This document shows, in pieces, positions 16,343 through 50,757 of a DNA stretch of 64,000 nucleotides; positions within the stretch are counted from its first letter, which is position 1, and each line of letters opens with the position of its first letter. The position numbers were made by a program, and so were the translations under genes. A model generated the notes under the pieces. The model was not told where the DNA came from. It saw only the letters and a list, made by a program, of their open reading frames with translations, and searched no databases. The stretch lies in IMG/VR virus record IMGVR_UViG_3300018790_000468, positions 1 to 64,000 of that record; one strand, 5' to 3'. The DNA is from a virus.

Positions 16343-17173
16343 ATGCTAATGAAAGTATCACATGAAACGCCTGTGTCTCTGTTGGAATATTCAAAGACTT
16401 ACAATGATTTTGACTACTGTCTGGTGCATCTGTTGCATGAAAATGTGGGGTCACCTCAACAGTTAGATTATTATAGTTTCTATAAATTTGGCAGAACTCT
16501 TCACAACAGAGAGGTGTTGCTGGACAATTCCATATTTGAACTTGGCAAAGCTTTTGATCCAGTGCAATTTCATAAATCTGTGCTGGACATTGAGCCAAAC
16601 ATGTACATTGTGCCAGATGTGCTGGAGGATATGCAAGGCACTGTGCACAGTTTCAAAGAGTTTGGTGACAAGAGAGATGACATAAGAAATGCATTTCAAA
16701 CAAAAGCCATTGGTGCCATCCAAGGTAAGAACTGGCATGAGCTCCAAGAGTGTTACAAGTACATGTCTGAAAATGCAGACATGATTGCCATCAGTTTCGA
16801 TTTTAGCTATTACCAGATCACGGGAGAGGGTGAGAACCCATTGGAGAGATGGTGCTCTGGCCGGCAACGTTTCATCACAGACTTGATGAACACAGGCATA
16901 TGGGACTGGAACAAGCCTCACCATTTGCTGGGATGCTCCTTGGCCAAGGAATTCAGGTATTATGTGGACAATGATATTAGCAACATTGTTTCATGTGATA
17001 CCAGCAACCCCATTGTGGCCGCCATCCATGGATTAAAATATGATGCAGATTATGGGCTGACTACCAAGCCTTCAACCAAGCTGGTCGATCTAATTGCACA
17101 TGAATTTACCGTTGATCAACTTGAGCTGTTAAAGTATAATACATCCATGTTCAAGAAGATTATTCGCAGATGA
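16343..17173 (+). CDS. dpdA: DpdA-like DNA-guanine transglycosylase
   Basis: 276 residues of the tRNA-guanine transglycosylase superfamily in its short phage DpdA form. Matching blocks are LLDNSIFELGKAF (about 60-72, with the substrate Asp), YIVPDVLEDMQGTV (about 88-101), AIGAIQGKN (about 123) and LLGCSLAKEF followed by VSCDTSNPI. DpdA enzymes exchange guanine in DNA for a 7-deazaguanine base and protect phage DNA from restriction. Its stop overlaps the next gene, a formyltransferase, by 4 bases. folE, queD, queE and queF are elsewhere in this window. The start lies 6 bases after a TATAAT box; a second ATG two codons on is possible. The subfamily (DpdA1/2/3) is not decided. Confidence 0.75.
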   Translation: MLMKVSHETPVSLLEYSKTYNDFDYCLVHLLHENVGSPQQLDYYSFYKFGRTLHNREVLLDNSIFELGKAFDPVQFHKSVLDIEPNMYIVPDVLEDMQGTVHSFKEFGDKRDDIRNAFQTKAIGAIQGKNWHELQECYKYMSENADMIAISFDFSYYQITGEGENPLERWCSGRQRFITDLMNTGIWDWNKPHHLLGCSLAKEFRYYVDNDISNIVSCDTSNPIVAAIHGLKYDADYGLTTKPSTKLVDLIAHEFTVDQLELLKYNTSMFKKIIRR

Positions 17174-17742
17174 AGCGTCCTTGGGTTGCATTTTTTAGCC
17201 AAACGGGAACAGAGATTCAACAGCTATGCAACAAGCTTGGCACATATCCAGATTTGATTGTTACCAATCAACATCAACAGGGGAAAATTAACAAAGATTT
17301 GCTCACTGTTGCAACATCCAGAGCTGTATTATTGAACATGCGCAACTGGGAAGTGTTGCCTGTGAAACCTAGTCTCAAGGATTACACTGACGCATTAGCT
17401 GGGTATGAGGAAAAAGATCCGCTCATCACACTGCATGGCTACCTGCGCATCATACCCAAGGAAATTTGTAACAAGTATGAGATGTACAATCTGCATCCTG
17501 GTCTTATTAATAAGTTTCCAGAACTCAAAGGCTACAACCCACAAGAGCGCGCTTTTATTGATGGATACAAAAGTGCAGGGTGTGTAATTCATAAAGTGAC
17601 TCCTGGTGTTGATGAAGGTGACATCATATCATACAGTGAAATTGATATTGATAGTCTCACACTACCTCAGGTGTACAGTGCATTGCATGCATGTGCACAG
17701 ACACTGTGGCAGTCATTTCTCAGCCCACATGTTGCAGCTTAA
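17170..17742 (+). CDS. dpdN: Formyltransferase, candidate dPreQ1 formyltransferase (DpdN)
   Basis: 190 residues with the PurN/Fmt formyl-transfer fold. The catalytic pattern is visible: YNLHPGLINKFPELKGYNPQ (Asn-X-His) and CVIHKVTPGVDEGDII (Asp). Relatives use 10-formyl-THF as donor. The family alone would suggest GAR or sugar formylation. However, its ATGA overlap with dpdA and the queF gene in the same operon point to N-formylation of preQ1 in DNA, the reaction assigned to DpdN in phages with 7-(formylamino)methyl-7-deazaguanine. A sugar formyltransferase for the glycan cluster is the main alternative, but that cluster is 12 kb away. Confidence 0.65.
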   Translation: MKRPWVAFFSQTGTEIQQLCNKLGTYPDLIVTNQHQQGKINKDLLTVATSRAVLLNMRNWEVLPVKPSLKDYTDALAGYEEKDPLITLHGYLRIIPKEICNKYEMYNLHPGLINKFPELKGYNPQERAFIDGYKSAGCVIHKVTPGVDEGDIISYSEIDIDSLTLPQVYSALHACAQTLWQSFLSPHVAA

Positions 17743-17783
17743 TGATAGCATTTTTGCAGGTGTGTATATAATATAATTACATT

Positions 17784-18152
17784 ATGAATAAAGAACATGT
17801 GCATGACGGTGACGCTGAAATTGTAAATGTTGTAGAGAATACATACCCACAGACATGTGATGAATTTAAAAAGATACAACTGGAACAGTACACAGTTTTT
17901 TGCAAGAAACAGAATGACTATGGTCCTCATAACATAAGCCTGGGATCTGACTTGAAGCAACAAGAAGACAGAGAAGCATCCATCTCTGCCATTGTGGTGC
18001 GGTTGAATGATAAAATACAGCGACTCATAAACATGGTGCTGAGAAGAAAGACGTTTGTGGCTGCAAATGAATCCATATTTGATGCATTTTCAGATTCTGC
18101 TGTGTATTGCATCATTGCTGAGATTATCAAGAGAGGCAAGTGGTGCAAGTAG
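17784..18152 (+). CDS. Nucleotide-modification-associated domain 1 (DUF1599-like) protein
   Basis: 122 residues. LEQYTVFCKKQNDYGPHNISLGSDLKQQED (about 30-59) and VVRLNDKIQRLINMVLRR match the Nmad1/DUF1599 family, which is named for its gene association with phage DNA base modification. Its biochemical role is not established. It lies 41 bases after dpdN, and a TATAAT box sits 6 bases before its ATG (-35 box weak), so it may also have its own leaderless transcript. Position supports a part in 7-deazaguanine modification. Confidence 0.65.
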   Translation: MNKEHVHDGDAEIVNVVENTYPQTCDEFKKIQLEQYTVFCKKQNDYGPHNISLGSDLKQQEDREASISAIVVRLNDKIQRLINMVLRRKTFVAANESIFDAFSDSAVYCIIAEIIKRGKWCK

Positions 18153-18153
18153 T

Positions 18154-18324
18154 ATGTCATTAATGCATGCATGGAGAACATGGAATACCAAAGTTAAATC
18201 CCTTGAGGATGAATTGAGTATCATGTTGCAAGAGAACAAGATTCTTTTGGAAGAAATAAAGATGCTTAAAAAGCTTGTGTATGACTTGGAGATAGAGTAT
18301 ACTACCTTGATACGACGCAAATGA
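18154..18324 (+). CDS. Small coiled-coil protein (56 aa)
   Basis: Starts MSLMHAWRTWNTKVKSLEDEL one base after the previous stop. The rest is a continuous heptad-rich helix (LSIMLQENKILLEEIKMLKKL). The ATG is chosen because the longer frame would overlap the Nmad1-like gene. Its stop overlaps the next start (ATGATG). Function unknown; may be an oligomerising partner of its neighbours. Confidence 0.5.
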   Translation: MSLMHAWRTWNTKVKSLEDELSIMLQENKILLEEIKMLKKLVYDLEIEYTTLIRRK

Positions 18325-18911
18325 TGTTCACTTTCACAGGCCCTCAGTGTTCTGGCAAATCTACATTGCTACAAGCATGTAAGAAGCATTATGACAGTCG
18401 GCTTACATATGTGGAAGAGGTTACACGACTCATCAAACGTGAGTTTGATGTGCCTATCAATGAAGAAGGTGCATGTGATATTACTCAGACTTTAATCTTG
18501 AATAAAGAATTTGAGAACCTGTTTATTGGTTACAAGTTGAGTGGCTTCCAAGGTATTCTGCATGATCGATGTTTGTTGGATGGCATGATATATACAAACT
18601 ACTTTGCAGAAAAATATGGCAGGAACAAGTTCCAATTCTCAGAAGCTTTGGGTGCACGGTATTATTATTCACACATACACCGGTATGATCATATCTTTTA
18701 TACCAATCCGCATGATGTGCCCATGGAAGATGATGGTGAAAGAAGCACGTGTGATCATTTCAGATCGCGCATCACTAGCATGTATGAAAATTTCTGGTTG
18801 GATGATATCAATATTCGTGGCAAAGTTACTATATTGCGGGGCACTGTGGCAGAGCGTATGGAGCAGATCAAAGCTAAATTGCATGAGTTGCTGCCAAGTG
18901 CTACACGGTGA
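18321..18911 (+). CDS. P-loop kinase/ATPase (AAA_28 type)
   Basis: 196 residues. Walker A is FTGPQCSGKST (about 5-15). LHDRCLLDGMIYT is the Asp-Arg pair of nucleotide kinases, and a lid-like acidic region (VPMEDDGERS) follows. The overall layout fits AAA_28/NadR-like kinases that phosphorylate nucleosides or nucleotides. It is linked by 4-base overlaps to both neighbours inside the dpdA-queF operon, so a role in nucleotide modification is plausible. It is not clearly homologous to a known dNMP kinase. A second P-loop kinase of the same class lies at 43868. Confidence 0.6.
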   Translation: MMFTFTGPQCSGKSTLLQACKKHYDSRLTYVEEVTRLIKREFDVPINEEGACDITQTLILNKEFENLFIGYKLSGFQGILHDRCLLDGMIYTNYFAEKYGRNKFQFSEALGARYYYSHIHRYDHIFYTNPHDVPMEDDGERSTCDHFRSRITSMYENFWLDDINIRGKVTILRGTVAERMEQIKAKLHELLPSATR

Positions 18912-20233
18912 GTGACATGCCCTTTTGTTTGGCCCCTTGGGCAGGCATACATGCATTGCCAGATGGCCTGGTGTATCCTTGTTGCATGTCCACATTTGAT
19001 CCTGAGAACGCGTTTGGTGACCTGAATGATAATGCAATTGAAGATATCTTGAATTCAGAAAAAGCCAAGCAATTCAGATGCAAGATGATGGCAAATGAGC
19101 CAGATCAGAAGGCTTGCAGCCATTGCGTGAGTGAGGAAAAGACAGGTACAAAGAGTTTTCGTCATCACTGGAATACCAAGTATGCACATGCACTGCCACT
19201 TGTTGACAAGACAGACAAAGATGGTCATTATCATTTTGAAAACTTTCCCTACATTGATATACGGTTGTCCAGTTTGTGCAATTTTAAATGCAGAATGTGT
19301 CACAGTGGTTTGAGCTCTTCTTGGTTGCTAGAGGATGTGAAGTATGCATCAAATTATCAAAATTCTTTCAATTCCAAGACTGGTGTCATTGAAATACCAC
19401 AAAAAGAAAAACTTATCAAATTTATCATTGACAGAATTGAGCATGTGGAAGAAATTGAGTTTGCAGGTGGTGAGCCTTTTCTAATATCTGATTACTTCAC
19501 TTTGATAAAAGAATTTAAAAGGGTAAACAATCTTAACGTTAAAATAAGATTTCATACCAATGCATCATCTTTGTTTTGCAAAGGTGAGTACATACCGGAC
19601 TTACTCAAAGAGTTTAAGAACGTTTTTATCATGCTAAGCATTGATGGTCATGCCCAAGTTAATGACTACATGAGAAAAGGAAGCATATACAAAAAAATTA
19701 TTGCAAATGTGAGTCAGCTCAAGCAAATTGTGCCTCAAGCATTCCTAAGATTGGTACCCACCATTAGCATACCCACCATATACAGTGTGCCTTTCCTGTA
19801 TGCAGACTTTCTACGCAAAGGGTTAGTTGGTCATGCAGACATTGCATGCAGACCATTGTACGGGCCTGAATATCTGAACATACAAACATTGCCGTTGGAG
19901 GACAAGTTAAAAATTCTAAAGTTTTACAATTGCTTCATTGACAATGTGGCAGTTAAGCTTTTGCAGCGTTTCTCAGAAGAAAGTGTTGCATATGTGCGGC
20001 AAGAGTTCTCATCCATCATGAATTTCATGTTGCTCAAGAATCAAATTGAGCCATTCAATAGCAAGAGATTCAAAGAGAGCATCAAGCGACTGGATGTGAG
20101 ACGCAATGAAAGTTATGAAGATATTTTTCCTGAAACTGCACATCTGTTGTCAGGTGATGTGTCAACATACAACTTGGATATCAAATATAATGAGTTGAAG
20201 AACTTTGTAGATGGTATACAATATAACCAATGA
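18908..20233 (+). CDS. Twitch-domain radical SAM protein
   Basis: 441 residues. The radical SAM cluster motif is LSSLCNFKCRMCHSG (about 121-135, CX3CX2C), followed by EFAGGEPFL (SAM-binding GGE). An N-terminal CLAPWAGIHALPDGLVYPCC and a CSHC pair form SPASM/twitch-like cysteine sites for auxiliary clusters. Proteins of this type are frequent in marine phages with unknown targets. The GTG start gives a 4-base overlap (GTGA) with the kinase gene, and its stop overlaps queF by 4 bases. In this operon it may act in base or nucleotide modification, which is inference. Confidence 0.8.
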   Translation: MSDMPFCLAPWAGIHALPDGLVYPCCMSTFDPENAFGDLNDNAIEDILNSEKAKQFRCKMMANEPDQKACSHCVSEEKTGTKSFRHHWNTKYAHALPLVDKTDKDGHYHFENFPYIDIRLSSLCNFKCRMCHSGLSSSWLLEDVKYASNYQNSFNSKTGVIEIPQKEKLIKFIIDRIEHVEEIEFAGGEPFLISDYFTLIKEFKRVNNLNVKIRFHTNASSLFCKGEYIPDLLKEFKNVFIMLSIDGHAQVNDYMRKGSIYKKIIANVSQLKQIVPQAFLRLVPTISIPTIYSVPFLYADFLRKGLVGHADIACRPLYGPEYLNIQTLPLEDKLKILKFYNCFIDNVAVKLLQRFSEESVAYVRQEFSSIMNFMLLKNQIEPFNSKRFKESIKRLDVRRNESYEDIFPETAHLLSGDVSTYNLDIKYNELKNFVDGIQYNQ

Positions 20234-21150
20234 ATACAGAATTAGATAACAGTAATAGTGCCAAGCATTTGGGTAAGATCACTGGGTACAAGTGCACTTA
20301 TGATCCCACATTGTTGGTTCGTGAACCCAGATGCAACAACAGAAAGCATTTGAATATTAGTGATGAAGCACCACCCTTTTGTGGTTATGATATTTGGAAT
20401 GCATATGAGGTGTCTTGCTTGACCAATGAAGGCATGCCCATTGCTGCCATTGCCAAGTGTGTGTACCCTGCAACCAACAAATACATTGTGGAGTCCAAGT
20501 CCATCAAGCTGTACATGAATACTTTCAACATGGAGAAGTTTAGTGGCAGCATAGTTAGCGTTTTGAAGCAGTTGGAACAGGTGATTGCAAAAGACCTATC
20601 CACCCTATTAGAAACTGATGTGCAGGTCTATGTTCGTCTTACAAAAGCGGTTGATGAAGAGATGCATTATCCTCCCTTGTTTCCACGCACTGCATATCCT
20701 ACACTGGAGAACAACATTGATGTGACGACTATCAAGTCCAGAGGTTACAAAGAGGATCCAGAATTACTTGGTTGGTTGCAAGGTGATGCAAGCAAAGTGC
20801 AGCGCTTTCATTCCGCCCTGTTAAAGAGCAATTGCCGGGTCACATCCCAACCAGATTGGGGTGATGTGTACATACATTACAAAGGACCTTATGAGCTTAA
20901 CCAAACCTCTTTGTTGCAATACATTGTGTCATTCAGAGATGAATGTCATTTTCATGAAGAGATATGTGAGACCATTTACAAGCGCTTGCATGATCTGACA
21001 AAACCTGAAGAGCTCATGGTGGCCTGTTTGTATGTGAGACGTGGTGGCATTGACATCAATCCCATCCGAGCCAGTAGCCCAGAGCTGTTGGCACAGAATT
21101 GTGCCATTTGGGACAAGTACAAGTACTTTACTAAAACAGTGCGTCAGTGA
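20230..21150 (+). CDS. queF: 7-cyano-7-deazaguanine reductase QueF (long type)
   Basis: 306 residues, the size of the two-domain QueF of the E. coli type. The QueF motif is IVESKSIKLYMNTFN (about 86-100), and the catalytic block SNCRVTSQPDWGDV places Cys202 and Asp209 seven residues apart, as in E. coli. It uses NADPH to reduce preQ0 to preQ1. Being last in the dpdA-dpdN operon, it supplies the aminomethyl base that a formyltransferase would need, which strengthens the fdPreQ1 prediction. Convergent with the gene at 21151, ending one base before it. Confidence 0.88.
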   Translation: MNTELDNSNSAKHLGKITGYKCTYDPTLLVREPRCNNRKHLNISDEAPPFCGYDIWNAYEVSCLTNEGMPIAAIAKCVYPATNKYIVESKSIKLYMNTFNMEKFSGSIVSVLKQLEQVIAKDLSTLLETDVQVYVRLTKAVDEEMHYPPLFPRTAYPTLENNIDVTTIKSRGYKEDPELLGWLQGDASKVQRFHSALLKSNCRVTSQPDWGDVYIHYKGPYELNQTSLLQYIVSFRDECHFHEEICETIYKRLHDLTKPEELMVACLYVRRGGIDINPIRASSPELLAQNCAIWDKYKYFTKTVRQ

Positions 21151-21543
21151 TTAACCGTTGAGATTCCAGAGCCTGCGCTGCTCTGAGCTCACACTGTCAA
21201 AACCATTGTCTGCCAATGTCTGTGCTGCTGTGCCAGTGGCACATGTGAAGATGGAGCTGGAATTGTTTGCCCTTTGCAGTGCAAATTGTGCACCATCATA
21301 AGCTTTGTCCACTCGGAATGATGTGTCGACACCATCAAGGGAGCCTGAAAGGACTGCATATGTGCTTGTCAAGCTACCAGTAGCAGCTTGAAACAGCAAT
21401 GACTGTGCAGTGCTGCCTATGGTAATGAGATTGACTCCCAGAAAACTACCTGCAGCATCTACAGCTGACTTGGATAGGTTCAAAGATGTGGGGTTTGAAA
21501 CAGCGGGATCCTTGACTTGATATGTGAATGAAATTGATGCCAT
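21151..21543 (-). CDS. Small structural-type protein downstream of the capsid gene
   Basis: 130 residues, Ser/Ala/Thr-rich, starting MASISFTYQVKDPAVSNP. Not recognised. The composition, the CATAAATA late box exactly 5 bases before the ATG and the place next to gp23 suggest a virion or fibre component. It is cut off from the gp23 message by the terminator at 21586-21618 and uses its own promoter. Confidence 0.55.
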   Translation of the reverse strand: MASISFTYQVKDPAVSNPTSLNLSKSAVDAAGSFLGVNLITIGSTAQSLLFQAATGSLTSTYAVLSGSLDGVDTSFRVDKAYDGAQFALQRANNSSSIFTCATGTAAQTLADNGFDSVSSEQRRLWNLNG

Positions 21544-21548
21544 GTAAT

Positions 21549-21556
21549 TATTTATG
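21549..21556 (-). promoter_or_regulatory. Late promoter box
   Basis: CATAAATA on the minus strand, 5 bases before the ATG at 21543. Confidence 0.55.
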
Positions 21557-21585
21557 CAAAATTATCATAATTTTTGTTAATAACC

Positions 21586-21618
21586 AAAAAAAAAGGGCCC
21601 CGCAAGAGGCCCTTTTTT
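21586..21618 (-). terminator. Rho-independent terminator after gp23
   Basis: A-run, then GGGCC (21595-21599), an 8-base loop region, GGCCC (21608-21612), then six Ts. The A and T runs make it work in both directions. It lies 58 bases after the gp23 stop on the minus strand. A smaller hairpin CCTAG-GACTTA-CTAGG (21625-21640) precedes it. Confidence 0.85.
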
Positions 21619-21675
21619 AACTATCCTAGGACTTACTAGGTGAAATATTTTTCTTTTACAACTCTATCTCTTCGG

Positions 21676-23178
21676 TTAGAAGTAGACTGATTGTGTTCCA
21701 GGGGTAAAGGCAACGCCTAGACCCGAGAGGATGATAACGTGATAGTACAAGTTAGCACCAAAGATGTTATCGACAACACCGTAGCGGGTCATGAGACCAA
21801 CACGGGGTGCGAAATCATTGGGACCAATTGTACGCTGTACCATGACAGGGATGTATGGGCAGTAGATAATACCAGTATCATAGAACTCAGGACCCTTGTA
21901 GCCCAGAAGGGCATACTCGAGTGGCTGATTCCGGGTACCAGATTGGAACTGTGCCTCAGTACGTGTGTCACGATACACATTAAAACGTCCACCAAGCGAA
22001 CCTACCTTAGCCACGCCTACCGGTTGTGTGTTTACGTTACCCTGGACAGGTACCCACTGGAATTCAGGGAGCATCTCTAGGATAGCACAAACGCGAGGTG
22101 TTGCAACAACAAAGTTGGCTGCACCACGACGATTACGAACGGCAATACGGTTAGCTTCGATAATTAGTCTCTGATAGAAATCGCGATTACGTTCAACGAG
22201 CCAACGGCCGTCTGCTGAAGCTGGGCTCCAAACAGAGTAGCCGGCGCCTGCGCCAGCGTTTAGAGCGACCTGGATCATGCGGATGATCATTTCACGATCG
22301 ATTTCTGCCTGTAGCTCATAGCTCATAGCATTTGTCAATTCTGTGTCAATGTCAATACCGTTCATGTTCTTGAGATCTTGCTCTAATTCAACTGACCAAC
22401 GCGCGCCTAGTCTACGTGTACCGGCTTCAACTGCAGTTTTCTCGAAGGAAACCACGACCTGAGGGATAGATCCCGTCAATTCGTAATCCTTGAGAATACG
22501 TGCCACACCTGCATCTGATCCGAGGATCGAGAAGGCAGAGTTACCGGACAAGCCGGCAGATGATGTACCAGTGAAACGTGTATCTAGGAACTGATAACCC
22601 AATTCTTGTCCATCAGTACCTGCGGCAGTCTGACTGCCGTAGTTTGTACCAACGGTTGTACCGGTGGCTGATGGCTGACCATCAACACCGTTACCAAGGG
22701 CTTCATTCTCGTAACGATAGCGCAAAGCAAATGCCAAACCCACTGGGCCTGACATGGGCTGCACGCCAACGATTTCATTAGAAATAAGTTCGGGGAACGT
22801 TCTACGAATCATGGGAATCAAGATCTTAGGAAGACGATAATCACCAGCTGCATAGGTATCAGTTCCAGGTGTGCCAGCTGGATTTGAATTCCAACCGCCT
22901 GTTTGTGATGTGCCTATTGAGCCACCGGCAGTGCCGGTAGCATTTGAACCAGCTTGATTAGCATAACCAACGGCAGGGCTATAATTAGGCCCTGCTTCTC
23001 TCAAGCACCACTGCTCTTGGTTTTCCAAGAGAATGGCTGTGTTCAAACGGGTATGATCATCTTCGATAGCTGCAACGTTCTTGGAAGTGTAATCCAATAC
23101 TGGACTCCACTTTTCAAGAAGAGCTGAAGCTCTTGACTCGTCAATGTATGACTGCGAAGGACGAACAACTTTTTTCAT
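21676..23178 (-). CDS. gp23: Major capsid protein (T4 gp23-like)
   Basis: 500 residues with the N-terminus typical of T4-like gp23 (SYIDESRASALLEKWSPVLDY...HTRLNTAILLENQEQW). CLRE|AGPN at about residue 61 fits the L-X-E cleavage rule of the gp21 protease, as expected for capsid maturation. Base use is richer in G+C than most neighbours, as often seen for the most highly expressed phage gene. A GGAG ribosome site lies about 15 bases before the ATG, unlike most leaderless starts here. It follows gp22 (23258-24145) and is ended by a strong terminator. Confidence 0.93.
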   Translation of the reverse strand: MKKVVRPSQSYIDESRASALLEKWSPVLDYTSKNVAAIEDDHTRLNTAILLENQEQWCLREAGPNYSPAVGYANQAGSNATGTAGGSIGTSQTGGWNSNPAGTPGTDTYAAGDYRLPKILIPMIRRTFPELISNEIVGVQPMSGPVGLAFALRYRYENEALGNGVDGQPSATGTTVGTNYGSQTAAGTDGQELGYQFLDTRFTGTSSAGLSGNSAFSILGSDAGVARILKDYELTGSIPQVVVSFEKTAVEAGTRRLGARWSVELEQDLKNMNGIDIDTELTNAMSYELQAEIDREMIIRMIQVALNAGAGAGYSVWSPASADGRWLVERNRDFYQRLIIEANRIAVRNRRGAANFVVATPRVCAILEMLPEFQWVPVQGNVNTQPVGVAKVGSLGGRFNVYRDTRTEAQFQSGTRNQPLEYALLGYKGPEFYDTGIIYCPYIPVMVQRTIGPNDFAPRVGLMTRYGVVDNIFGANLYYHVIILSGLGVAFTPGTQSVYF

Positions 23179-23257
23179 ATTTTGAATAAATTTCTCCGTA
23201 ACATAAGTCGACCGTTTTTTTCCTATTAAGGCTAAAGCCTAAACGAAACTGCAAAAA

Positions 23258-24145
23258 TTAGTATTTGCTGAGCTCTTTGAGGTAGTATTTGGATGAATCA
23301 TCATCAGCAGGCAGATTTGTGTTCTCACCAATTATTTTTTCTTCAATAATGGGACGATCTACCTGGGATGAAGATGAATCTTCAACTGCTTCAGTGGCCA
23401 GTGTTTCGAGCCGTTCTGTCTCAGACTTTTCAAACATTTTAACAGTGTAGTCAAAATTCTCTTTGACAAATTCAGGATTCTTGCCAGCAAAAAGTTTAAC
23501 AACTTGTTTAACTTTCTGTGGATCCATGTCTTTTGTCTTTTCTGCAAAGAGATTTGTTTCTTCAATCTCTTGGAGTTTTGACTTCAATGCTGCATTCTCT
23601 GAGAGAACAGCTTCAAGCTTTTTATAAGCTTCATTAATTTGATTCTTGCCGTCAACAATGGCATCACGAATAGAACTATTCGCAAGTGCTTCATCAACAG
23701 CCAGAGTCTTTTTGATGCCTTCAAGAACAGCAACTGCTCGCTTGTTCTTTACTGCTTCATTGATTGATGCAGCAGGTATTGCTTCATCAATGTAAAGTTC
23801 CAAATAATTTGATATGTTTTCAACCAAATTGCCTTTGAAATTCTTGGCGTCTTTGTCAGACATGTTTTCATATTTTTTGAGAACATTCTGCAATTTGCCA
23901 GTGTGATCAGCAACCACTGCTTCATACACTTTGGTCAGCTTGGCTGTGTGATCTGTGTCAATGGCAGATACTAGCTTCTCAAGCTTGCTGGAATAATCTT
24001 CATCTTGCTCAATGAGTGCTTTCTCAACATGCAGTTGCACCTTGGTGTTGACTGCTTCATTAAAAATATTCTGCAACTCATTCAATGTCTCTTCAGACAA
24101 AATATCTTTGGTTGCTTCTTTGAGTACGTCTTTTACTTCTTTCAT
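23258..24145 (-). CDS. gp22: Prohead scaffold protein (T4 gp22-like)
   Basis: 295 residues starting MKEVKDVLKEATKDILSEETL. Long, acidic, almost all helical and without aromatic core residues, as expected of the gp22 scaffold that is degraded by gp21. The start at 24145 is preferred because the longer frame runs into the 50-residue gene at 24153. Position between gp21 and gp23 fixes the assignment. Several L/I-X-X-E sites (for example LQEIEETN) fit protease cleavage. Confidence 0.85.
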   Translation of the reverse strand: MKEVKDVLKEATKDILSEETLNELQNIFNEAVNTKVQLHVEKALIEQDEDYSSKLEKLVSAIDTDHTAKLTKVYEAVVADHTGKLQNVLKKYENMSDKDAKNFKGNLVENISNYLELYIDEAIPAASINEAVKNKRAVAVLEGIKKTLAVDEALANSSIRDAIVDGKNQINEAYKKLEAVLSENAALKSKLQEIEETNLFAEKTKDMDPQKVKQVVKLFAGKNPEFVKENFDYTVKMFEKSETERLETLATEAVEDSSSSQVDRPIIEEKIIGENTNLPADDDSSKYYLKELSKY

Positions 24146-43864: not shown

Positions 43865-43872
43865 TATTTATC
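43865..43872 (-). promoter_or_regulatory. Late promoter box
   Basis: GATAAATA on the minus strand, 5 bases before the GTG at 43859. Confidence 0.58.
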
Positions 43873-44614
43873 TTTTGGGTATGATAAGATTGCTGTAAAA
43901 GGATTTTTCATGCTTCTCTTTTTCAGATATCTGTTTCTGTGTGTTAATCAACTCCTCCATTTGCGAGGATGCTTGTATATCACTGATTACACTCTGATCT
44001 TCACCAATTAGATCGCCGTTCACATTGAGGTAATACCTCACCAATTGTATTCTTTCCTCAGGCTTGCCAAAAATTTCCACTATGCCAGGTGAATCATCCT
44101 TGGGAAAAAACACAGACACACCTGTTTTTTGAATTTGTTGCACAATGGTTTTGAATATGTTGTCTATTTCTTTGATGTAGACTTCATCTATCTCGCGCTT
44201 GTCATCTTGCACAACGGGCACAGGTGCTACACGTGTTATAGGTGTGAAGAATATGATGTCCAGATAGCGCATAGACTCACGCACCAACGGTATGCACTTG
44301 TCAATGAATTTGTCATCAAATTTATCGGGAGTCTTGCTGTTGCCCCAAAGAGAGTATATGATGTTATCCAAGGGACAACGGTCAAATATGATTTTGCTTC
44401 CCCTTTCACAATTTTTCTGCATGTCATCAATCATGCAGTTTAGTATCTTCCACTGCAGATCTGGTGTGGATTCCTTGCTATGGGGTGCCTTCTCTTGCTT
44501 CAATATTTTTCTGTAACTTGAATCAATCTGTTTGTAGGATGGCCATTCCTTTATGAAATCATTTATGAAGGTTGTTTTGCCTTGACAAGCGGATCCAGAT
44601 ACAGCAATTCTCAT
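43868..44614 (-). CDS. P-loop kinase/ATPase (AAA_28/dNMP kinase-like)
   Basis: 248 residues from the ATG giving MRIAVSGSACQGKTTFINDF. Walker A is GSACQGKTT. SKIIFDRCPLDNIIYSLWG has the Asp-Arg of nucleotide kinases. A long charged helical C-terminus (VISDIQASSQMEEL...KQISEKEKHEKS) follows. Similar class to the kinase at 18321. Likely phosphorylates a nucleotide or sugar nucleotide; substrate unknown. A short frame extension upstream (TTG) is not used. Confidence 0.62.
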   Translation of the reverse strand: MRIAVSGSACQGKTTFINDFIKEWPSYKQIDSSYRKILKQEKAPHSKESTPDLQWKILNCMIDDMQKNCERGSKIIFDRCPLDNIIYSLWGNSKTPDKFDDKFIDKCIPLVRESMRYLDIIFFTPITRVAPVPVVQDDKREIDEVYIKEIDNIFKTIVQQIQKTGVSVFFPKDDSPGIVEIFGKPEERIQLVRYYLNVNGDLIGEDQSVISDIQASSQMEELINTQKQISEKEKHEKSFYSNLIIPKR

Positions 44615-44652
44615 AACATATTTTACAGTTAATTTCAATATTTGCAAGCCTG

Positions 44653-44660
44653 CTTAAATA
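44653..44660 (+). promoter_or_regulatory. Possible late-type box before the AsnB-like gene
   Basis: CTTAAATA, 8 bases before the ATG at 44669. Imperfect match and spacing. Confidence 0.25.
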
Positions 44661-44668
44661 ACATTATT

Positions 44669-46117
44669 ATGTGCGGTTTTCTAGTAACAAACAAGCCAGT
44701 GTCAGATGCAGAATTGGACCATGCAAATTTTTATATCAAATTCAGGGGGCCTGATCATACCGAGAAACCAAAAATAGAAAATATTAGCTTCATACACAAC
44801 CTGCTCAGTCTCACAGGAGAATTTAGACCCCAGCCAATTTTTAAAGATAATATAGCTGTGGTCTATAACGGTGAAATTTATAATTTTAAGGAATTAGATA
44901 AAGATGCAAAATCAGACGGTGATGTAATTATTCCACTGTACAAAGAATATGGTGCCAATTTTCTTGATAAACTTGATGGTGAGTTCTCCATAGTGCTTAT
45001 TGATTTTAATACAAACAAAGCAATATTAGCTGTTGACACCTTTGAAACAAAACCTCTGTATGTTGCACACAAGGGCCCATACTTTGGTGCTGCATCTCTG
45101 AGAAGCGGTTTAGTAAGGCTGGGATTCAAACATATAAGAGAATTGAGATGCAATACAGGTATAATATATAATATAAAGTCACTAGCAGTTGAGGACATAT
45201 TTGAAATACATAAGTTTGATGTTGAAAATGAGCACAAGAAAACCTTTGATGATTGGCATAATGCCTTTGAAGCAGCAGTTTTGAAGCGGCTAAAATATGT
45301 GGATCTTAAGAAAACTGGAGTTGGTCTGCACTTAAGTGAGGGTCATGACAGTGGCTCTATTGCAGCGTGCCTTAAAAAATACAACCTTTCGGATGATATC
45401 TTAATACATTCTTTCATAACACAGGATATGCATCCTGAAGTCTTGAGGTGGAGACATGGGCTTGATCAGGATACTTTGCCAAAGAATGGCAGTGGAGAAA
45501 TTTTTAAATCTCCAAATTTTAAACGATCCATACTTGATAGTATAAGAGAGGAGGATTTTGTTTTGAGCAATATTTTATATAAGAAAAGAGTTGAGGATTT
45601 TGATTATTTTACAATGACACCCGAAGCAAAGCTGGAAGTAAGAAATTCCTACTATCATTTCACAAGAAATATGTACCATCTTATATACAGAGCTAGATTG
45701 AAACATAGTTGCAGAATAGGGCTGGGTGGTTATGGTGGTGATGGTGTGTCAAGTGCGTGGGTAAATAAAATTTATAAGAAATATGGAAGCATATGGCCTA
45801 TTATTAATTTCAGGGATAACTCGATGTATCTATCAGATATAATAGCAGGTTCTCTGGGAGTTGAAGTAAGAAACCCTTACATGGATAAAGCATTATGGCA
45901 GGAGTCTTTCTGGATGGATAAATCTGTCTATAGAAATGAAAACAATAATCATAAACCACCATTGCATGACTATCTTGAGAAAGAGAAATTTCCATTTTAT
46001 AAGAGAGATAAAAACAACGATATAGAGTTCTTCTGGATTGGATTCGGTAATTTTCTGAACTTTAACTCAGTACATAAAGACCCTATTTATGTACCGCAAC
46101 CTGATATTACACTTTAA
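44669..46117 (+). CDS. AsnB-like glutamine amidotransferase with altered PP-loop
   Basis: 482 residues. The start is fixed by the need for Cys2: MCGFLVTNK begins an Ntn-type class II glutaminase domain, with FRGPDHT (about 25-31) and VYNGEIYNF (about 65-73). The second half is an asparagine-synthetase-type ATP pyrophosphatase domain, but the usual SGG.DS loop reads SEGHDS (223-228). LGGYGGDGVSSAWV is the second conserved loop of AsnB. It would move ammonia from glutamine to an activated acid. Asparagine, a glycan amide or a 7-deazaguanine amide are all possible targets. It converges with queE, overlapping its end. Confidence 0.72.
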   Translation: MCGFLVTNKPVSDAELDHANFYIKFRGPDHTEKPKIENISFIHNLLSLTGEFRPQPIFKDNIAVVYNGEIYNFKELDKDAKSDGDVIIPLYKEYGANFLDKLDGEFSIVLIDFNTNKAILAVDTFETKPLYVAHKGPYFGAASLRSGLVRLGFKHIRELRCNTGIIYNIKSLAVEDIFEIHKFDVENEHKKTFDDWHNAFEAAVLKRLKYVDLKKTGVGLHLSEGHDSGSIAACLKKYNLSDDILIHSFITQDMHPEVLRWRHGLDQDTLPKNGSGEIFKSPNFKRSILDSIREEDFVLSNILYKKRVEDFDYFTMTPEAKLEVRNSYYHFTRNMYHLIYRARLKHSCRIGLGGYGGDGVSSAWVNKIYKKYGSIWPIINFRDNSMYLSDIIAGSLGVEVRNPYMDKALWQESFWMDKSVYRNENNNHKPPLHDYLEKEKFPFYKRDKNNDIEFFWIGFGNFLNFNSVHKDPIYVPQPDITL

Positions 46118-46859
46118 GTGCTTTGTCCCAAATTACAAGCTGCAGACGCGGGCTAAAATTGAACATGTGCTTCTTGCAAAGATCGGCTACCATGGCCGCC
46201 TTTTCTGCTAATTCTGCCCTGCTGCCACAACAAGGCATCAACCATACACGATTCTTTGGCACATTAACGTCAGGGTTGTTTATATACTTCTCCAGGATTT
46301 CCTGCACATCAGATTCACCGCTAACAACAAACTTGAACCCTGACCCATTCTCTGCATGCCACTTTAAAACAGCGGGCTTGTATCTCTTTTCAACAGCATC
46401 CCCATTATTAGACAGTTTTGGTGATGTTGTGAACGTTGCCCTATATTCTGTTAGCCAGGCTTCATCCGGCAGAATGGTTGCATTGGTTTCAAAATCAATA
46501 ACCGGCGTGTATCCAAATCGGTCTGCATACGAGCGCACTAATTTGAGCAATTGCTTCTGTTGAATGAGTGGTTCACCGCCAGTGATCTTCCATATGGCAC
46601 CCTCGCGCAACTTGCACTCATATCCCTCTTGCAACAACAGATCCAATATGCTGTCCAAAGTCAACTTGTTCTTTACAGACCAGCTCACAAAGCTGTCACA
46701 ACCATGTGGTGCAGCTGCAGAAGCAAATCCTTTGCATGTGAGGTTGCACATAGAAAGGCGCATGAACACAGAAGGCATGCCGGCATATTCACCTTCACCT
46801 TCAATGGTGTAAAAAATCTTATCATCACTAAGAAATAGTGTATCAATTGCATCAGTCAT
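46107..46859 (-). CDS. queE: 7-carboxy-7-deazaguanine synthase QueE (radical SAM)
   Basis: 250 residues. FYTIEGEGEYAGMPSVFMRLSMCNLTC is the QueE start (Gln/Glu-Gly-Glu and the cluster region), WKITGGEPLIQ the SAM-binding GGEP, and VIDFETNAT matches QueE. The cluster cysteines are spaced CX3CX11C rather than CX3CX2C, an insertion also known in variant QueE proteins. It converts 6-carboxytetrahydropterin to 7-carboxy-7-deazaguanine, between QueD and QueC. It has its own early-type promoter, with the ATG 6 bases after TATTAT. Confidence 0.8.
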   Translation of the reverse strand: MTDAIDTLFLSDDKIFYTIEGEGEYAGMPSVFMRLSMCNLTCKGFASAAAPHGCDSFVSWSVKNKLTLDSILDLLLQEGYECKLREGAIWKITGGEPLIQQKQLLKLVRSYADRFGYTPVIDFETNATILPDEAWLTEYRATFTTSPKLSNNGDAVEKRYKPAVLKWHAENGSGFKFVVSGESDVQEILEKYINNPDVNVPKNRVWLMPCCGSRAELAEKAAMVADLCKKHMFNFSPRLQLVIWDKALKV

Positions 46860-46947: not shown

Positions 46948-46955
46948 AATAAATA
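46948..46955 (+). promoter_or_regulatory. Late promoter box before phoH
   Basis: AATAAATA, 7 bases before the ATG at 46963. Confidence 0.45.
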
Positions 46956-46962
46956 ATTACAG

Positions 46963-47905: not shown

Positions 47906-48544
47906 TCAAGTGCCCCAAGAGGTTCCTGCATAAGGAATGCTTATGCCGCGTGTCACTTTGTTGGTGAGCGGTGCACCAGACTCAATGTTCAGACCTGCAT
48001 TCACTGCAGTTACATTCTGTAGTGCAGGTGGTATGGTAGTTGTAACAGTTACTGCAGCTGCATTGCCTGAAGCTATACTGGTAGCGGTATGTGCAGTTTG
48101 TGTGGCTGTGGCAATTGCAATTGCAGAATTCTTCTCATGTTCCCACACTTCCACCTGTTTAACCCAGCAACGACCATTGGTAAGATGTCTCACATGTCGA
48201 TCAGCTGTCTCCAAGCACCATTCTGCAGTACGCTCGATGCCTACTCCATTTTCCATGATGCGTGGTAATGCTGCACCTGCATGACCCAATGCAATGAATG
48301 TATCAAGTAGAGGATCATCACCTGCAATGCATAATGTATGATCAAATTGATGTTCTAATGCTTGCTTCAATTCCTTGAGACCACCAAAATCTACAACCCA
48401 ATTTCTTGCATCTAAGTGTTCACACTCAAACCAAAATTTTGCCACCAATCGGTAACCATGCACATATTTGCAATGACTGTCTGCTCTCCATTGTCTGAAT
48501 GCGCAACTTCCCAGCTCTATAATCTTTGTACTTTCATGTTTCAT
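47906..48544 (-). CDS. queD: 6-carboxy-5,6,7,8-tetrahydropterin synthase QueD (PTPS family)
   Basis: 212 residues. FRQWRADSHCKYVHGYRLVAKFWFE is the metal and catalytic-Cys region of the FRQW-type QueD group, with HGY in place of the usual HGH. ARNWVVDFGGLKELKQALEHQFDHTLCI supplies the downstream Asp/His motif. The C-terminal about 70 residues (Ala/Thr/Val-rich) are an extra tail. It makes 6-carboxytetrahydropterin from dihydroneopterin triphosphate, the product of FolE (50110). It has two tandem early-type promoters. Confidence 0.82.
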   Translation of the reverse strand: MKHESTKIIELGSCAFRQWRADSHCKYVHGYRLVAKFWFECEHLDARNWVVDFGGLKELKQALEHQFDHTLCIAGDDPLLDTFIALGHAGAALPRIMENGVGIERTAEWCLETADRHVRHLTNGRCWVKQVEVWEHEKNSAIAIATATQTAHTATSIASGNAAAVTVTTTIPPALQNVTAVNAGLNIESGAPLTNKVTRGISIPYAGTSWGT

Positions 48545-48550
48545 ATTTGA

Positions 48551-48578: not shown

Positions 48579-48612
48579 CTGTATACATACCAACTCTTTA
48601 TATTACTGTATT

Positions 48613-48640
48613 ATTATAACCAAATTAATTTAGAAATCAA
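48613..48640 (-). promoter_or_regulatory. queD promoter, distal copy
   Basis: On the minus strand: TTGATT (48640-48635), 16-base spacer, TATAAT (48618-48613). Same 12-base -35 context as the proximal copy. A shared activator or repressor site is possible. Confidence 0.6.
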
Positions 48641-48688
48641 CTGTATTTGTTTGGAATTTATGCAATATAATGTTGCAACATGCACTTA

Positions 48689-49657
48689 TTAACTCTTGAG
48701 AGATCGGAGTGCGGTTATGGCTTGCTGATCATTAGGATTTTTTCTAATTCTTTGTATGAGTTCTTCTGCACGGCCTACATTCTGTTGCACTGGTGCTGTA
48801 TCAGTGGCCACTGGATCTGCTGCACCAGTAATACCACCGCGACGGGCAGTACCAGCTATCTGTCGTTGCAACTGCTGCGGTGCACCACCTGCAGCAGACT
48901 TGAGCGCTTGACCCAATGCACGCGGTGCATTCACAATGCGTGAATATGCACCAATGCCTTTGGTGAGCGCATTTACTGGTGCAGCTGCAATTTTACTGAT
49001 CATATCTGGTCCCCGGGGTTGTGCAGGTTGTGGTGCAAGTGCAGCTGCAGCTGCAGCTTGTGCAGACACTTGATTGCGATAATTCTGATTGACAGTTCGT
49101 CCTGGTGCGCGCTGCTGCTGTGGTTGCTTTGGTTTGATTGTTGCTTTGGGTGCACTATTAGATGGTGCTGCAGGTGCGACAGGAGGAGCTGGAGGTGGTG
49201 GTATTTTTCCGCCCCCGGCAGTAGCTACAGGTGCTTTTACTGCAGGTGCAGGTGCTACTGCTGGTGCTGGAGCTACAGGTGGTACAGGTGCTACTGCAGG
49301 TGCAGGTGCTACAGGTACCGGGACAACTGCTGGCGCCCTTGATGCAGGCTTTACAGGTGCATTGGGCACTGTCTTGTACTTGCTGATAATATCCTGATAC
49401 CTGCTCTCAAACTCTGACATCTTCTTTTTTGCAGCTGACTTCTCTCCCTGTGGTGCACTTGGGTCATTTGCAATCCTATTCATTACATCATACTGCTTGG
49501 CTATTTTTGCAGCATCAACAGGCTTTTTGCTTGCAGGTGCAGGCACTGTCGTTGCTGCAGCTTGACTGGGCTGCGGCAATGATGGTCGAGGTGGTGGTAG
49601 CTGAGGTACACCCTGCTCTTCAATTAAACTGTGGAAGAAATTATTAAACTTGCTCAT
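48689..49657 (-). CDS. Pro/Ala-rich protein with capsid-targeting-like N-terminus
   Basis: 322 residues. Starts MSKFNNFFHSLIEEQGVPQL, fitting the M-x-x-F-x-x-h-x-x-L-h-E pattern of a T4-type capsid-targeting sequence. The middle is a long Pro-Ala-Val low-complexity linker (VAPAPAVAPVPPVAPAPAV), and the C-terminus is a small helical domain (AEELIQRIRKNPNDQQAITAL). Not otherwise recognised. An internal head protein cut by gp21 after the LIEE site is one reading. Overlaps the upstream gene by 14 bases. Confidence 0.55.
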   Translation of the reverse strand: MSKFNNFFHSLIEEQGVPQLPPPRPSLPQPSQAAATTVPAPASKKPVDAAKIAKQYDVMNRIANDPSAPQGEKSAAKKKMSEFESRYQDIISKYKTVPNAPVKPASRAPAVVPVPVAPAPAVAPVPPVAPAPAVAPAPAVKAPVATAGGGKIPPPPAPPVAPAAPSNSAPKATIKPKQPQQQRAPGRTVNQNYRNQVSAQAAAAAALAPQPAQPRGPDMISKIAAAPVNALTKGIGAYSRIVNAPRALGQALKSAAGGAPQQLQRQIAGTARRGGITGAADPVATDTAPVQQNVGRAEELIQRIRKNPNDQQAITALRSLKS

Positions 49658-50057
49658 TGCTTAGAATATACTCCTTGTACAAATCTTTTATATGCACATC
49701 ATTCAAGCCATTGTCCTTGAGTATGGCTTCAATTGCCACAATGTCAGCCAAATTGACAATCATTTCACCTGCAGGTGCACCCAGTTTTTGCAGAATAAAA
49801 GCTTTTAATCCTTGTAAATTATTGTGTGTAGGTGCTGCCACCATGGAAGCAGGCAGATCCACCATGGGGTTCATGTCTTGTGCAGGTTGCATCACTACAA
49901 TGGAAACTGAGCCACCACACTCATGCAGCACATAACCCTCATAGCCTGCATATGCTTTGAATGCATCATGCTCTTTGTTGAGAGGATCAAACTTTATGCG
50001 TATTCTTTTCAAATTCTGCGCTTTGGCAGTACTCTCAATTAGTTGATCAAATTTCAT
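49644..50057 (-). CDS. Protein with capsid-targeting-like N-terminus (137 aa)
   Basis: Starts MKFDQLIESTAKAQNLKRI, with an early L-I-E that the gp21 protease could cut. The rest is mixed alpha/beta (VADAIEAIL-like helices at the end) and unrecognised. An AATAAATA box lies 9 bases before the ATG. Co-transcribed with the Pro/Ala-rich protein. Confidence 0.5.
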   Translation of the reverse strand: MKFDQLIESTAKAQNLKRIRIKFDPLNKEHDAFKAYAGYEGYVLHECGGSVSIVVMQPAQDMNPMVDLPASMVAAPTHNNLQGLKAFILQKLGAPAGEMIVNLADIVAIEAILKDNGLNDVHIKDLYKEYILSNEQV

Positions 50058-50066
50058 TGACTATAA

Positions 50067-50074
50067 TATTTATT
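50067..50074 (-). promoter_or_regulatory. Late promoter box
   Basis: AATAAATA on the minus strand, 9 bases before the ATG at 50057. Confidence 0.35.
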
Positions 50075-50075
50075 A

Positions 50076-50103
50076 TTGAATATCACAAACTTTAAGTTAT
50101 ATT
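50076..50103 (+). promoter_or_regulatory. Early-type promoter of folE
   Basis: TTGAAT (50076-50081), 16-base spacer, TATATT (50098-50103), 6 bases to the ATG at 50110. Confidence 0.55.
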
Positions 50104-50109
50104 ATTAAT

Positions 50110-50757
50110 ATGTCTACAAAAGTATTAATTCCATACGCAAATCATAACCACCCTCGATCTGAACAAGAGAAGCAGGAGATCATTGCACATGCTGCAAAAG
50201 CTTATGAAGCATATCTGGATGCATTGTGCATTGATTGGCGCAATGATCCCAACAGTTCCAACACACCACACCGAGTGGCCAAAGCCTTTGTGGAAGATCT
50301 GGCCAGTGGTTGTTACAGTACCCCGCCCAAGGTGACTGCGTTTGCAAATGTGGACCAGTATGATGGCATTGTGTGTCAGAACAACATCAGAGTAACCTCA
50401 CTTTGCTCTCATCACCATGTAGCGTTCACTGGTGTGGCACATGTGGCATACATACCTGCACGTGATGGCAAGGTCATTGGATTGAGCAAGCTTAATCGCA
50501 TTGTGGACTGGTTTTCACGCAGACCACAGGTGCAAGAAAATCTCACCATGCAAATTCATACACATATTGATGAAGCTTGTGTGAAGAACAATGGTGTAGC
50601 AGTCATGATTGAAGCCAAGCATTCATGTTGTTCCAACCGCGGCATCAAGCATGATTCTACTATGCGCACTGCGCGCATGTCTGGTGCATTCCTGGACAAT
50701 GGCGACAACTCTCGTTCAGAGTTTTACAAGTTCATTGAATTTGCACAAGTGCATTAA
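50110..50757 (+). CDS. folE: GTP cyclohydrolase I (FolE type)
   Basis: 215 residues. The zinc and catalytic block SLCSHHHVAFTGVAHVAYIP, GLSKLNRIVDWFSRRPQVQENL and EAKHSCCSNRGIKHDST are all present, giving the two cysteines and the histidine that bind zinc. FolE makes dihydroneopterin triphosphate from GTP, the first step to 7-deazaguanines (with QueD, QueE) and also to folates and the 10-formyl-THF used by formyltransferases. An early-type promoter predicts a leaderless message. Confidence 0.9.
   Translation: MSTKVLIPYANHNHPRSEQEKQEIIAHAAKAYEAYLDALCIDWRNDPNSSNTPHRVAKAFVEDLASGCYSTPPKVTAFANVDQYDGIVCQNNIRVTSLCSHHHVAFTGVAHVAYIPARDGKVIGLSKLNRIVDWFSRRPQVQENLTMQIHTHIDEACVKNNGVAVMIEAKHSCCSNRGIKHDSTMRTARMSGAFLDNGDNSRSEFYKFIEFAQVH

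Follow-up and report, generated by a model that had tools for sequence, protein, structure and literature searches.

A conserved phage operon predicted to place a 7-deazaguanine in DNA, with a possible base exchange on nucleotides before replication

Genes for preQ0 and preQ1 in the phage record

The window analyzed here is a stretch of 64,000 nucleotides (positions 1 to 64,000) of the 112-kb IMG/VR record IMGVR_UViG_3300018790_000468. An initial annotation had placed folE, queD, queE, queF, dpdA and a formyltransferase gene in this DNA and called the phage T4-like. All six proved to be open reading frames at the positions given, recognized by profile matches or, for DpdA, by fold, and the T4-like label is fitted by matches to a head protein (phrog_138, 6.6e-85), a baseplate hub/lysozyme (phrog_430, 2.1e-7) and a scaffold protein (phrog_237, 1.3e-5). 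Profile matches identified the GTP cyclohydrolase I FolE (50110..50757, + strand; PF01227, E = 5.7e-48), QueD (47906..48544, − strand; PF01242, 1.9e-17; phrog_2389, 1.2e-33) and a phage-type QueE (46107..46859, − strand; phrog_2076, 6.3e-46) with Cys38, Cys42 and Cys54. QueC, for which a search of the rest of the genome had been proposed, lies 5.7 kb past the window end (record 69744-70568, + strand; PF06508, E = 2.3e-59), and the preQ0 pathway (FolE, QueD, QueE, QueC) is therefore complete in this one record.

Each of folE, queD and queE had also been credited with its own early-type promoter. Sigma-70-like consensus matches do stand directly before these three genes, while their early-type character found no support. 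The queE/queD/folE region holds 36 such sites against 19.7 (sd 4.2) in shuffles. A promoter-like site, likewise a consensus match only, abuts the dpdA ATG (16309..16345, + strand), in a region that is not enriched (20 sites vs 16.9 in shuffles). With a gap of only 4-6 bases between the -10-like element and the ATG, almost leaderless transcripts would be expected.

The predicted preQ0 nitrile reductase QueF is of the two-domain type (20230..21150, + strand; PF14819, 2.8e-32; PF14489, 6.7e-22) and scores 257 bits against TIGR03138, for a cut-off of 293. QueF enzymes are marked by catalytic Cys and Asp residues at a spacing of seven and by the NADPH motif E(S/L)KSxK; the window protein has Cys202 and Asp209 at this spacing and ESKSIK at position 88. 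Both catalytic residues are kept in 13/13 aligned sequences, in which ESKS is followed by I, M or A. Of 87 loci, 68 carry the strict pattern SNC..T.QPDW and 57 carry E(S/L/T)KS(I/L)K, the remainder being variant or truncated.

Organization of the dpdA-to-queF operon

The genes from dpdA to queF form a single block on the + strand, with 4-base overlaps at dpdA/formyltransferase, kinase/18908 and 18908/queF. The proposal that QueF, DpdA and the formyltransferase share one operon was borne out, and the operon is a conserved one, compared here across 92 dpdA-to-queF loci, which represent related phages and not independent events. Beyond the six genes first named, the operon encodes a DUF1599-like protein (17784), a kinase (18321), a radical SAM protein (18908) and, between 17784 and the kinase, a small ORF of 56 aa (18154..18324, + strand), a counterpart of which was seen by eye in locus L005.

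The DpdA-like protein (16343..17173, + strand) gave no Pfam match above curated cut-offs, TGT included, and no NCBIfam match; the bona fide DpdA1 of phage 9g likewise lacks a Pfam TGT match. Its one strong profile match was phrog_19058, of "unknown function" (3.1e-50). Its AlphaFold model (pLDDT 92.8) adopts the TGT fold, matches 2pot in Foldseek (E = 7.9e-10) and aligns with 7ui4, "DNA preQ0 insertase DpdA", over 236 residues (VIA Z 17.9, rmsd 3.1). Judged by this model, the protein is a DpdA-fold transglycosylase. Furthermore, it is 40-41.5% identical to proteins of Flavobacterium phage vB_FspM_immuto (NC_055915; immuto hereafter) and of the type found in Campylobacter phage CP220, and tblastn recovered CP220 (E = 4e-45) and CPt10 (E = 2e-45) at 41% identity. 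By sequence it belongs to the CP220/CPt10/immuto type, which we take to be the DpdA3 subfamily. The family assignment made initially is upheld by the TGT fold and by homology to CP220 and CPt10, and not by Pfam or NCBIfam profiles. Residues D61, D92, D153 and D219 are invariant in 67 DpdA-like sequences; D61 (LDNSIFE) and D219 (SCDTSNP) were paired by eye, from motif order, with TDSGGFQ and MFDCVMPT of E. coli TGT, a pairing for which hhalign gave about 1% probability and left those Asp residues unpaired. This DpdA type is common, with at least 556 stretches in a scan of viral contigs encoding a relative, and its profile found no match in phages 9g, CAjan, Dp-1 and nt-1, which have other DpdAs.

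The formyltransferase (17170..17742, + strand; PF00551, 1.2e-16) is a candidate dPreQ1 formyltransferase, DpdN-like in role. The catalytic triad of formyltransferases is Asn-His-Asp, and N107, H109 and D148 are invariant in 14 sequences. The protein is 45% identical to its immuto counterpart, and a homologue is present in 78/92 loci. Since QueF and a formyltransferase with an intact triad sit in one conserved operon, fdPreQ1 is our best guess for the product in this phage.

The thymidylate-kinase-like P-loop kinase (18321..18911, + strand; phrog_2107, 6.1e-20), a candidate kinase for modified dGMP, belongs to a family whose profile finds the thymidylate kinase 2pbr (3.9e-6). It is the most constant operon member, with a homologue in 92/92 complete loci. 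When it was used as bait, dpdA lay upstream in 60/60 judgeable loci and queF downstream in 59/59. The window kinase and DpdA each matched 19 of 50,697 phage records, in the same phages; for IBB_35 and CC_R7 the kinase match in this search is a second, distant copy, and the dpdA-linked copy was found separately. Even a kinase profile from which the immuto and Campylobacter sequences had been left out recovered the dpdA-linked kinase of immuto (9.5e-31), CP220 (9.8e-36), CC_R7 (1.1e-10) and three MAG contigs. Of six other 7-deazaguanine phages, five showed no kinase match, 9g, CAjan and Dp-1 among them, and nt-1 gave 9e-5; in locus L288, no kinase was found within 5 kb downstream. The kinase family reaches further than DpdA, as the CP220 kinase also matches records of Streptomyces phages (89) and of a Rhodococcus phage (1).

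The DUF1599/Nmad1-like protein (17784..18152, + strand; phrog_1485, 1.4e-14) is a candidate dGTP pyrophosphohydrolase. Of 51 family members, 27 match DUF1599 at E <= 0.1, with 4.9e-8 as the best value; the window protein itself scores only 0.031, under the cut-off. Its model is all-helical; a match to 2p06 (Z 6.9, rmsd 3.3, 82 residues) is within noise for helical proteins, and the model gave nothing at Foldseek E <= 0.001. Profile comparison with the PDB likewise gave no meaningful match. Either a DUF1599-like gene (68 loci) or a PF18909 dATP/dGTP-diphosphohydrolase-type gene (7 loci), never both, occurs in 75/78 formyltransferase loci, always between the formyltransferase and the kinase (75/75); in L093 and L095 the formyltransferase is present with no hydrolase recognized nearby. 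Neither gene type was found in the operon of the 14 loci without formyltransferase, nor did DUF1599-like, MazG, HD or PRA-PH matches turn up in a pair of records from this clade, 98 and 209 kb long. The hydrolase therefore goes with the formyltransferase rather than with DpdA itself. Three distant relatives have MazG or PRA-PH near dpdA: a PRA-PH gene lies one small gene upstream in immuto and in L287, and MazG is one gene away in L288. The window's own record gave no GMP reductase, MazG, HD or PRA-PH match.

The radical SAM/SPASM (twitch) protein (18908..20233, + strand; NF033640, 303 bits, cut-off 170) has a homologue in 3/92 loci, two of these being near-copies of the window, and is probably cargo or a tailoring enzyme. 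A GMP reductase gene occurs in 21/92 loci. Variable genes inside the block across loci encode radical SAM, GMP reductase, cupin and ornithine cyclodeaminase family proteins.

Where guanine may be exchanged

Judged by its gene content, this phage has every gene for making a modified guanine and placing it in DNA. The nucleotide-processing genes of the operon suggest that the swap may take place on DNA building blocks before copying, and the kinase and DUF1599-like gene bear on whether exchange occurs at the DNA or the nucleotide level. From the observed gene content, modeled DpdA fold, linkage and co-occurrence we infer the following catalytic steps, their order at the nucleotide level and the product. 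FolE, QueD, QueE and QueC would make preQ0, which QueF would reduce to preQ1. The 17784 protein, or its PF18909, MazG or PRA-PH counterpart in relatives, would turn dGTP into dGMP and lower normal dGTP. The CP220/immuto-type DpdA would exchange guanine for preQ1 on dGMP before replication, the thymidylate-kinase-like enzyme would phosphorylate the modified dGMP for polymerase use, and the formyltransferase would convert aminomethyl to formylaminomethyl, so that most or all virion dG becomes fdPreQ1. We regard this scheme as a whole as slightly favored. That this DpdA type is a deoxynucleotide base-exchange enzyme acting on dGMP, with a dedicated pyrophosphohydrolase and kinase, and that the polymerase builds a guanine-free genome, we hold to be close to an even call.

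The initial annotation had read the pathway as yielding fdPreQ1 by exchange in DNA. The preQ0-to-preQ1 route, the DpdA fold and the linked, triad-bearing formyltransferase make that product the best guess; as the operon resembles the schemes of T4 and the Z genome, pre-replicative exchange on dGMP is an alternative to exchange in DNA. In the classical scheme, which we rate a serious possibility if one short of even, DpdA would work on finished DNA, replacing guanine by preQ1; formylation of the dPreQ1 already in the DNA would follow, and the kinase and hydrolase would do no more than tune general dNTP supply. TGT acts on polymer, the DpdA model aligns with a DNA preQ0 insertase, and the published view is of post-replicative insertion, as Cui et al. 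2023 reportedly state in their abstract. The DpdA1 of 9g is also small (317 aa), so small size is no argument for a nucleotide substrate. Moreover, the formyltransferase-less loci have no visible hydrolase, and in Streptomyces phage LukeCage, the one such phage examined, the kinase is present with no dpdA annotated or profile-matched within 12 kb. However, exchange in finished DNA leaves unexplained why one kinase accompanies this DpdA in all 92 loci and in the same phage records, and why pyrophosphohydrolases of different families are repeatedly found nearby. Nor does it account for the total replacement of dG in CP220 and CPt10, when Dp-1 has 1.7% of its Gs replaced and HVTV-1 about 30% (available parts of PMC8306585 and PMC6884629).

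Alternatively, the formyltransferase could be a PurN-like purine-synthesis gene feeding nucleotide supply, leaving plain dPreQ1 as the base, a reading compatible with the others. Its best named matches are indeed PurN, and one PHROG hit (1e-9) carries the name cyanobacterial phosphoribosylglycinamide formyltransferase. Yet its 50 bits fall far under the cut-off of 150 for PurN, it lies <=50 bases from dpdA in 70/78 loci, 14 loci that have queF lack both it and the hydrolase, and among phage records it was matched at E <= 1e-5 only in immuto, again near dpdA; we consider this reading unlikely. Phage 5-hydroxymethyluracil DNA kinases phosphorylate the base in DNA, and the variable genes within the block would fit such a hypermodification leading to a further derivative, but this is very improbable here, as the kinase is equally present with dADG (CP220) or the inferred dPreQ1/fdPreQ1, none of which has a side-chain hydroxyl, and its best solved relatives are thymidylate kinases.

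If exchange on dGMP before replication is true, it would add, beside hydroxymethyl-C and Z, a further route to total pre-replication replacement of a DNA base, and the reading would cover hundreds of metagenomic phage contigs. It would also explain the complete replacement in CP220 and CPt10 relative to Dp-1, which has another DpdA (PMC8306585 and PMC6884629, in the parts available). From the operon variants one would predict two chemotypes in nature, one carrying the formyl group and one lacking it.

Comparison with known systems

Phages 9g, CAjan, Dp-1 and nt-1 resemble the window phage in having preQ0 genes and a DpdA, and modification is low-level in nt-1 and Dp-1 (available part of PMC6884629). 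In CP220 and CPt10, where the base is dADG at 100% (available part of PMC8306585), a kinase gene adjoins dpdA and DpdA is about 41% identical to that of the window. Unlike the window, CP220 has no queF or formyltransferase annotated within 20.7 kb around dpdA, and an HD plus P-loop gene lies directly upstream. Like the window phage, immuto has queD, queE, folE, dpdA, formyltransferase, thymidylate kinase and queF, in its case close together on one strand. It differs in its PRA-PH-type gene upstream of dpdA and in its block, where no 17784 homologue and no radical SAM gene were found; no report on its DNA base was found in the literature searched.

The fdPreQ1/DpdN pathway, reportedly described by Cui et al. 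2023, comprises the same predicted enzymes as the window, namely the preQ0 genes, QueF, DpdA and a formyltransferase, the window enzyme being DpdN-like by role only; kinase and pyrophosphohydrolase are not known to be part of that scheme. Phage T4 has a comparable scheme of pyrophosphohydrolase, dNMP-altering enzyme and kinase in gp56, gp42 and gp1. Cyanophage S-2L carries the Z-genome cluster datZ, mazZ and purZ, in which MazZ makes dGMP from dGTP (available part of PMC8342488). As in our proposal, a pyrophosphohydrolase yields the dNMP, an enzyme alters it, and a kinase step follows; unlike in S-2L and T4, the altering enzyme of the window phage would be a TGT-fold base exchanger.

Gene content and the fold of DpdA

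The six genes named in the initial annotation, folE (50110, + strand), queD (47906-48544, - strand), queE (46107, -), queF (20230, +), dpdA (16343, +) and a formyltransferase gene (17170, +), all proved to be open frames, and family profiles matched FolE, QueD, QueE, QueF and the formyltransferase well above chance. Searching the remaining record for queC revealed the gene at record positions 69744-70568, just beyond the window, in a parent virus record of 112,223 bases that may be a fragment. Megablast of window positions 14000-24000 against 50,697 phage records gave no match. QueD has HGY, as does QueD of the public MAG contig L285, at the position of the zinc ligand HGH in cellular QueD. 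An asparagine-synthase-like amidotransferase gene adjoins queE (44642-46117, +; TIGR01536, 5.1e-30, below the cut-off of that family).

The dpdA label had rested on context, and no sequence family named the protein, which had no Pfam match above cut-off and no NCBIfam match; its single strong family match was a PHROG without an assigned function. The label was instead upheld by an AlphaFold model built from 67 sequences (mean pLDDT 92.8), which has a TGT fold. Foldseek ranked TGT structures first (2pot, E 7.9e-10), and VIA-align gave Z scores of 18.1 against the archaeosine TGT 1iq8 and 17.9 against the DNA preQ0 insertase DpdA 7ui4. A PDB profile search with DpdA as query gave no match. By eye, motifs of E. 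coli TGT have counterparts in the same order in DpdA (TDSGGFQ/LDNSIFE, GIIQG/GAIQG, YLMGVG/HLLGCS and MFDCVMPT/SCDTSNP) and 9g DpdA1 has LDSGAFS and SCDSSSW, with no significant HHalign score for the DpdA profile against either protein. D61 and D219 are invariant among the 67 aligned sequences. We presume that this type corresponds to DpdA3, after Cui et al. 2023. The small size of DpdA was discounted as a sign that it acts on nucleotides, since 9g DpdA1 is also small (317 aa).

Relatives in annotated phages (E <= 1e-5; 26-41.5% identity) were confined to 15 Campylobacter and four Flavobacterium immuto records. According to two reports, dADG replaces 100% of dG in CP220 and CPt10 (PMC8306585) and likewise in Campylobacter firehammervirus DNA (PMC10273834); an earlier one raised the question of DpdA-independent insertion of the base in Campylobacter phages of this kind (PMC6884629).

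Upstream of dpdA, queE, queD and folE, TTGA is followed after about 20 bases by a TATAAT-like element, with the ATG 4-6 bases further on. A loose pattern, drawn from these sites and thus circular for these four genes, marked the starts of 12 frames in the record with 60 or more codons, whereas 20 first-order random sequences gave no more than one such start each. This arrangement suggests four separate units under shared, near-leaderless control. Promoter-like elements nearly touching the start codon also occur at 4825 (+), 7697 (+), 29580 (-) and 30618 (-), and transcripts from such start-abutting elements may be leaderless.

A kinase gene in the dpdA-queF block

Relatives were fetched from IMG/VR, each scan yielding 80 loci that are the most similar and not a random sample. 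With identical dpdA sequences merged, 99 distinct dpdA loci were annotated using profiles built here; 92 reach queF, the other seven comprising two Campylobacter phages, loci cut off by the contig end, and locus L155. The thymidylate-kinase-like gene (18321 in the window) was present in all 92, the formyltransferase gene in 78, the family of the 17784 gene in 68, a PF18909-type gene in seven (two Pfam-confirmed, the remainder called by our profiles), a GMP reductase gene in 21 (confirmed in L005 and L007, the remainder called by our profiles) and the radical SAM gene in three. With the kinase as bait (80 loci, 69 distinct), dpdA was found in 60 of 60 judgeable loci and queF in 59 of 59, the 60/60 being slightly favored by setting aside nine loci that lacked dpdA and extended only a short way upstream. 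In an 89-row DpdA tree, from which fragments and rows with stops were excluded, operon type changes 14 times vs a shuffled mean of 40.6, indicating that the locus counts largely reflect shared descent. The formyltransferase-free rows require only two changes; the deepest rows are long branches of unsure placement.

Of the 50,697 phage records, 19 were matched by the window kinase at E <= 1e-3 and 19 by DpdA at E <= 1e-5, from the same phages. In IBB_35 and CC_R7 the match was a second kinase copy far from dpdA, and the dpdA-linked copies were found separately. The full kinase profile included immuto and Campylobacter sequences; a profile made without those rows still recovered the dpdA-linked kinase in immuto, CP220 and CC_R7. 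Neither the full kinase profile nor the DpdA profile matched 9g, Dp-1, CAjan, 7-11 or HVTV-1; in nt-1 the kinase profile scored 9e-5 and the DpdA profile gave no match. The idea that this kinase family goes only with DpdA was rejected, as the CP220 kinase matches 111 records, 89 of them from Streptomyces phages and one from a Rhodococcus phage. In LukeCage, the sole Streptomyces phage examined, the kinase was matched at 9.1e-22, and neither annotation nor profile placed a dpdA within 12 kb. The window also encodes a second thymidylate-kinase-like P-loop protein (43868-44647, -; phrog_2107, 5.7e-15; kinase profile, 1.4e-22), and CP220 and CC_R7 likewise have two kinase copies.

The gene order in immuto is queD, queE, folE, dpdA, formyltransferase, thymidylate kinase and queF; in CP220 and CC_R7 a kinase gene follows dpdA. 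Four public MAG contigs, representing independent lineages, encode DpdAs 37-43% identical. L285 has queE, a phosphoribosyltransferase gene, queD, folE, dpdA, formyltransferase, kinase, queF, three further frames and queC; L286 has dpdA, kinase, queF and queC; in L287, dpdA, kinase and queF are interspersed with other frames, and folE lies some way upstream of them; L288 combines dpdA and formyltransferase with a gene for a family-A DNA polymerase, and no kinase was seen. The phosphoribosyltransferase gene recurs in immuto, L285 and L287, and its positions in DpdA clusters of distant lineages are L024:7843-8238, L285:2194-2646 and L287:1901-2293; speculatively, it could recycle guanine freed by the exchange.

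The radical SAM/SPASM gene (18908-20233, +) was dropped as a core enzyme, being present in 3/92 loci with unrelated genes filling nearby slots elsewhere. Variable slots in or beside the block (L049, L092, L094, L095, L105) encode ornithine cyclodeaminase family and cupin proteins and, by eye, halogenase-like and aminotransferase-like proteins. The products of these variable genes might tailor the base further and so add to its diversity.

A candidate hydrolase and possible modification at the nucleotide level

The protein encoded at 17784 is related to DUF1599, which 27 of 51 family members match at E <= 0.1 (best 4.9e-8). Its model is all-helical and weakly matches AF_0060 (2p06; Z 6.9), an all-alpha NTP pyrophosphatase. 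Its family and the PF18909 type are mutually exclusive across the 92 loci; of the 78 loci with the formyltransferase, 75 have one or the other, in every case (75/75) placed after the formyltransferase and before the kinase, and none of the 14 loci lacking the formyltransferase has either. Upstream of dpdA, with a single gene intervening, lies a PRA-PH gene in L287 and immuto and a MazG gene in L288; L285:7956, MazG-like by eye, had no Pfam match and was not counted. The proposed pyrophosphohydrolase role of 17784 is argued chiefly on the grounds that PF18909-type genes can take its place and that other lineages have these neighbours. In 21/92 loci, a phage GMP reductase gene lies between formyltransferase and the 17784 homologue (L005:11402-12370 and relatives; 332 bits for the L005 protein, where the cut-off is 344), and its product might deplete guanine nucleotides.

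Pyrophosphohydrolase, base-altering enzyme and dNMP kinase together form the layout of total-replacement systems acting before replication, the T4 counterparts being gp56, gp42 and gp1. In S-2L, MazZ converts dGTP to dGMP for PurZ (PMC8342488).

Several observations count against DpdA acting on nucleotides. The formyltransferase-free clade keeps kinase and QueF, and a hydrolase elsewhere was not supported, as DUF1599-like, MazG, HD and PRA-PH profiles matched nothing in its L013 and L016 records (98 and 209 kb); a PF18909 search gave no match in any control and carries no weight here. Outside its operon, the L016 record does contain an IMPDH/GMP-reductase match. No hydrolase was recognised near the block in L093 and L095, two loci with the formyltransferase. 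The kinase without dpdA in LukeCage and the lack of a GMP reductase in the window's own record weigh the same way. Furthermore, 7-deazaguanine insertion is reportedly post-replicative, which also counts against this reading.

The predicted base and known systems

Window QueF retains Cys202, Asp209 and ESKSIK, making reduction of the preQ0 nitrile to preQ1 likelier than amidine formation. A QueF-like amidinotransferase in the clade with divergent QueF was rejected: the strict motif missed 19/87, and the alignment shows that Cys and Asp are kept. The formyltransferase retains its Asn-His-Asp triad. The 209-kb L016 record had no PF00551 match, and relatives like it are predicted from gene content to carry plain dPreQ1.

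Our literature search found no report linking a kinase or dGTPase to DpdA. fdPreQ1 is reportedly already known as a phage DNA base, from the work of Cui et al. 2023. The predicted fdPreQ1 chemistry would thus be a further case of a known kind, and the kinase/hydrolase module is what differs.
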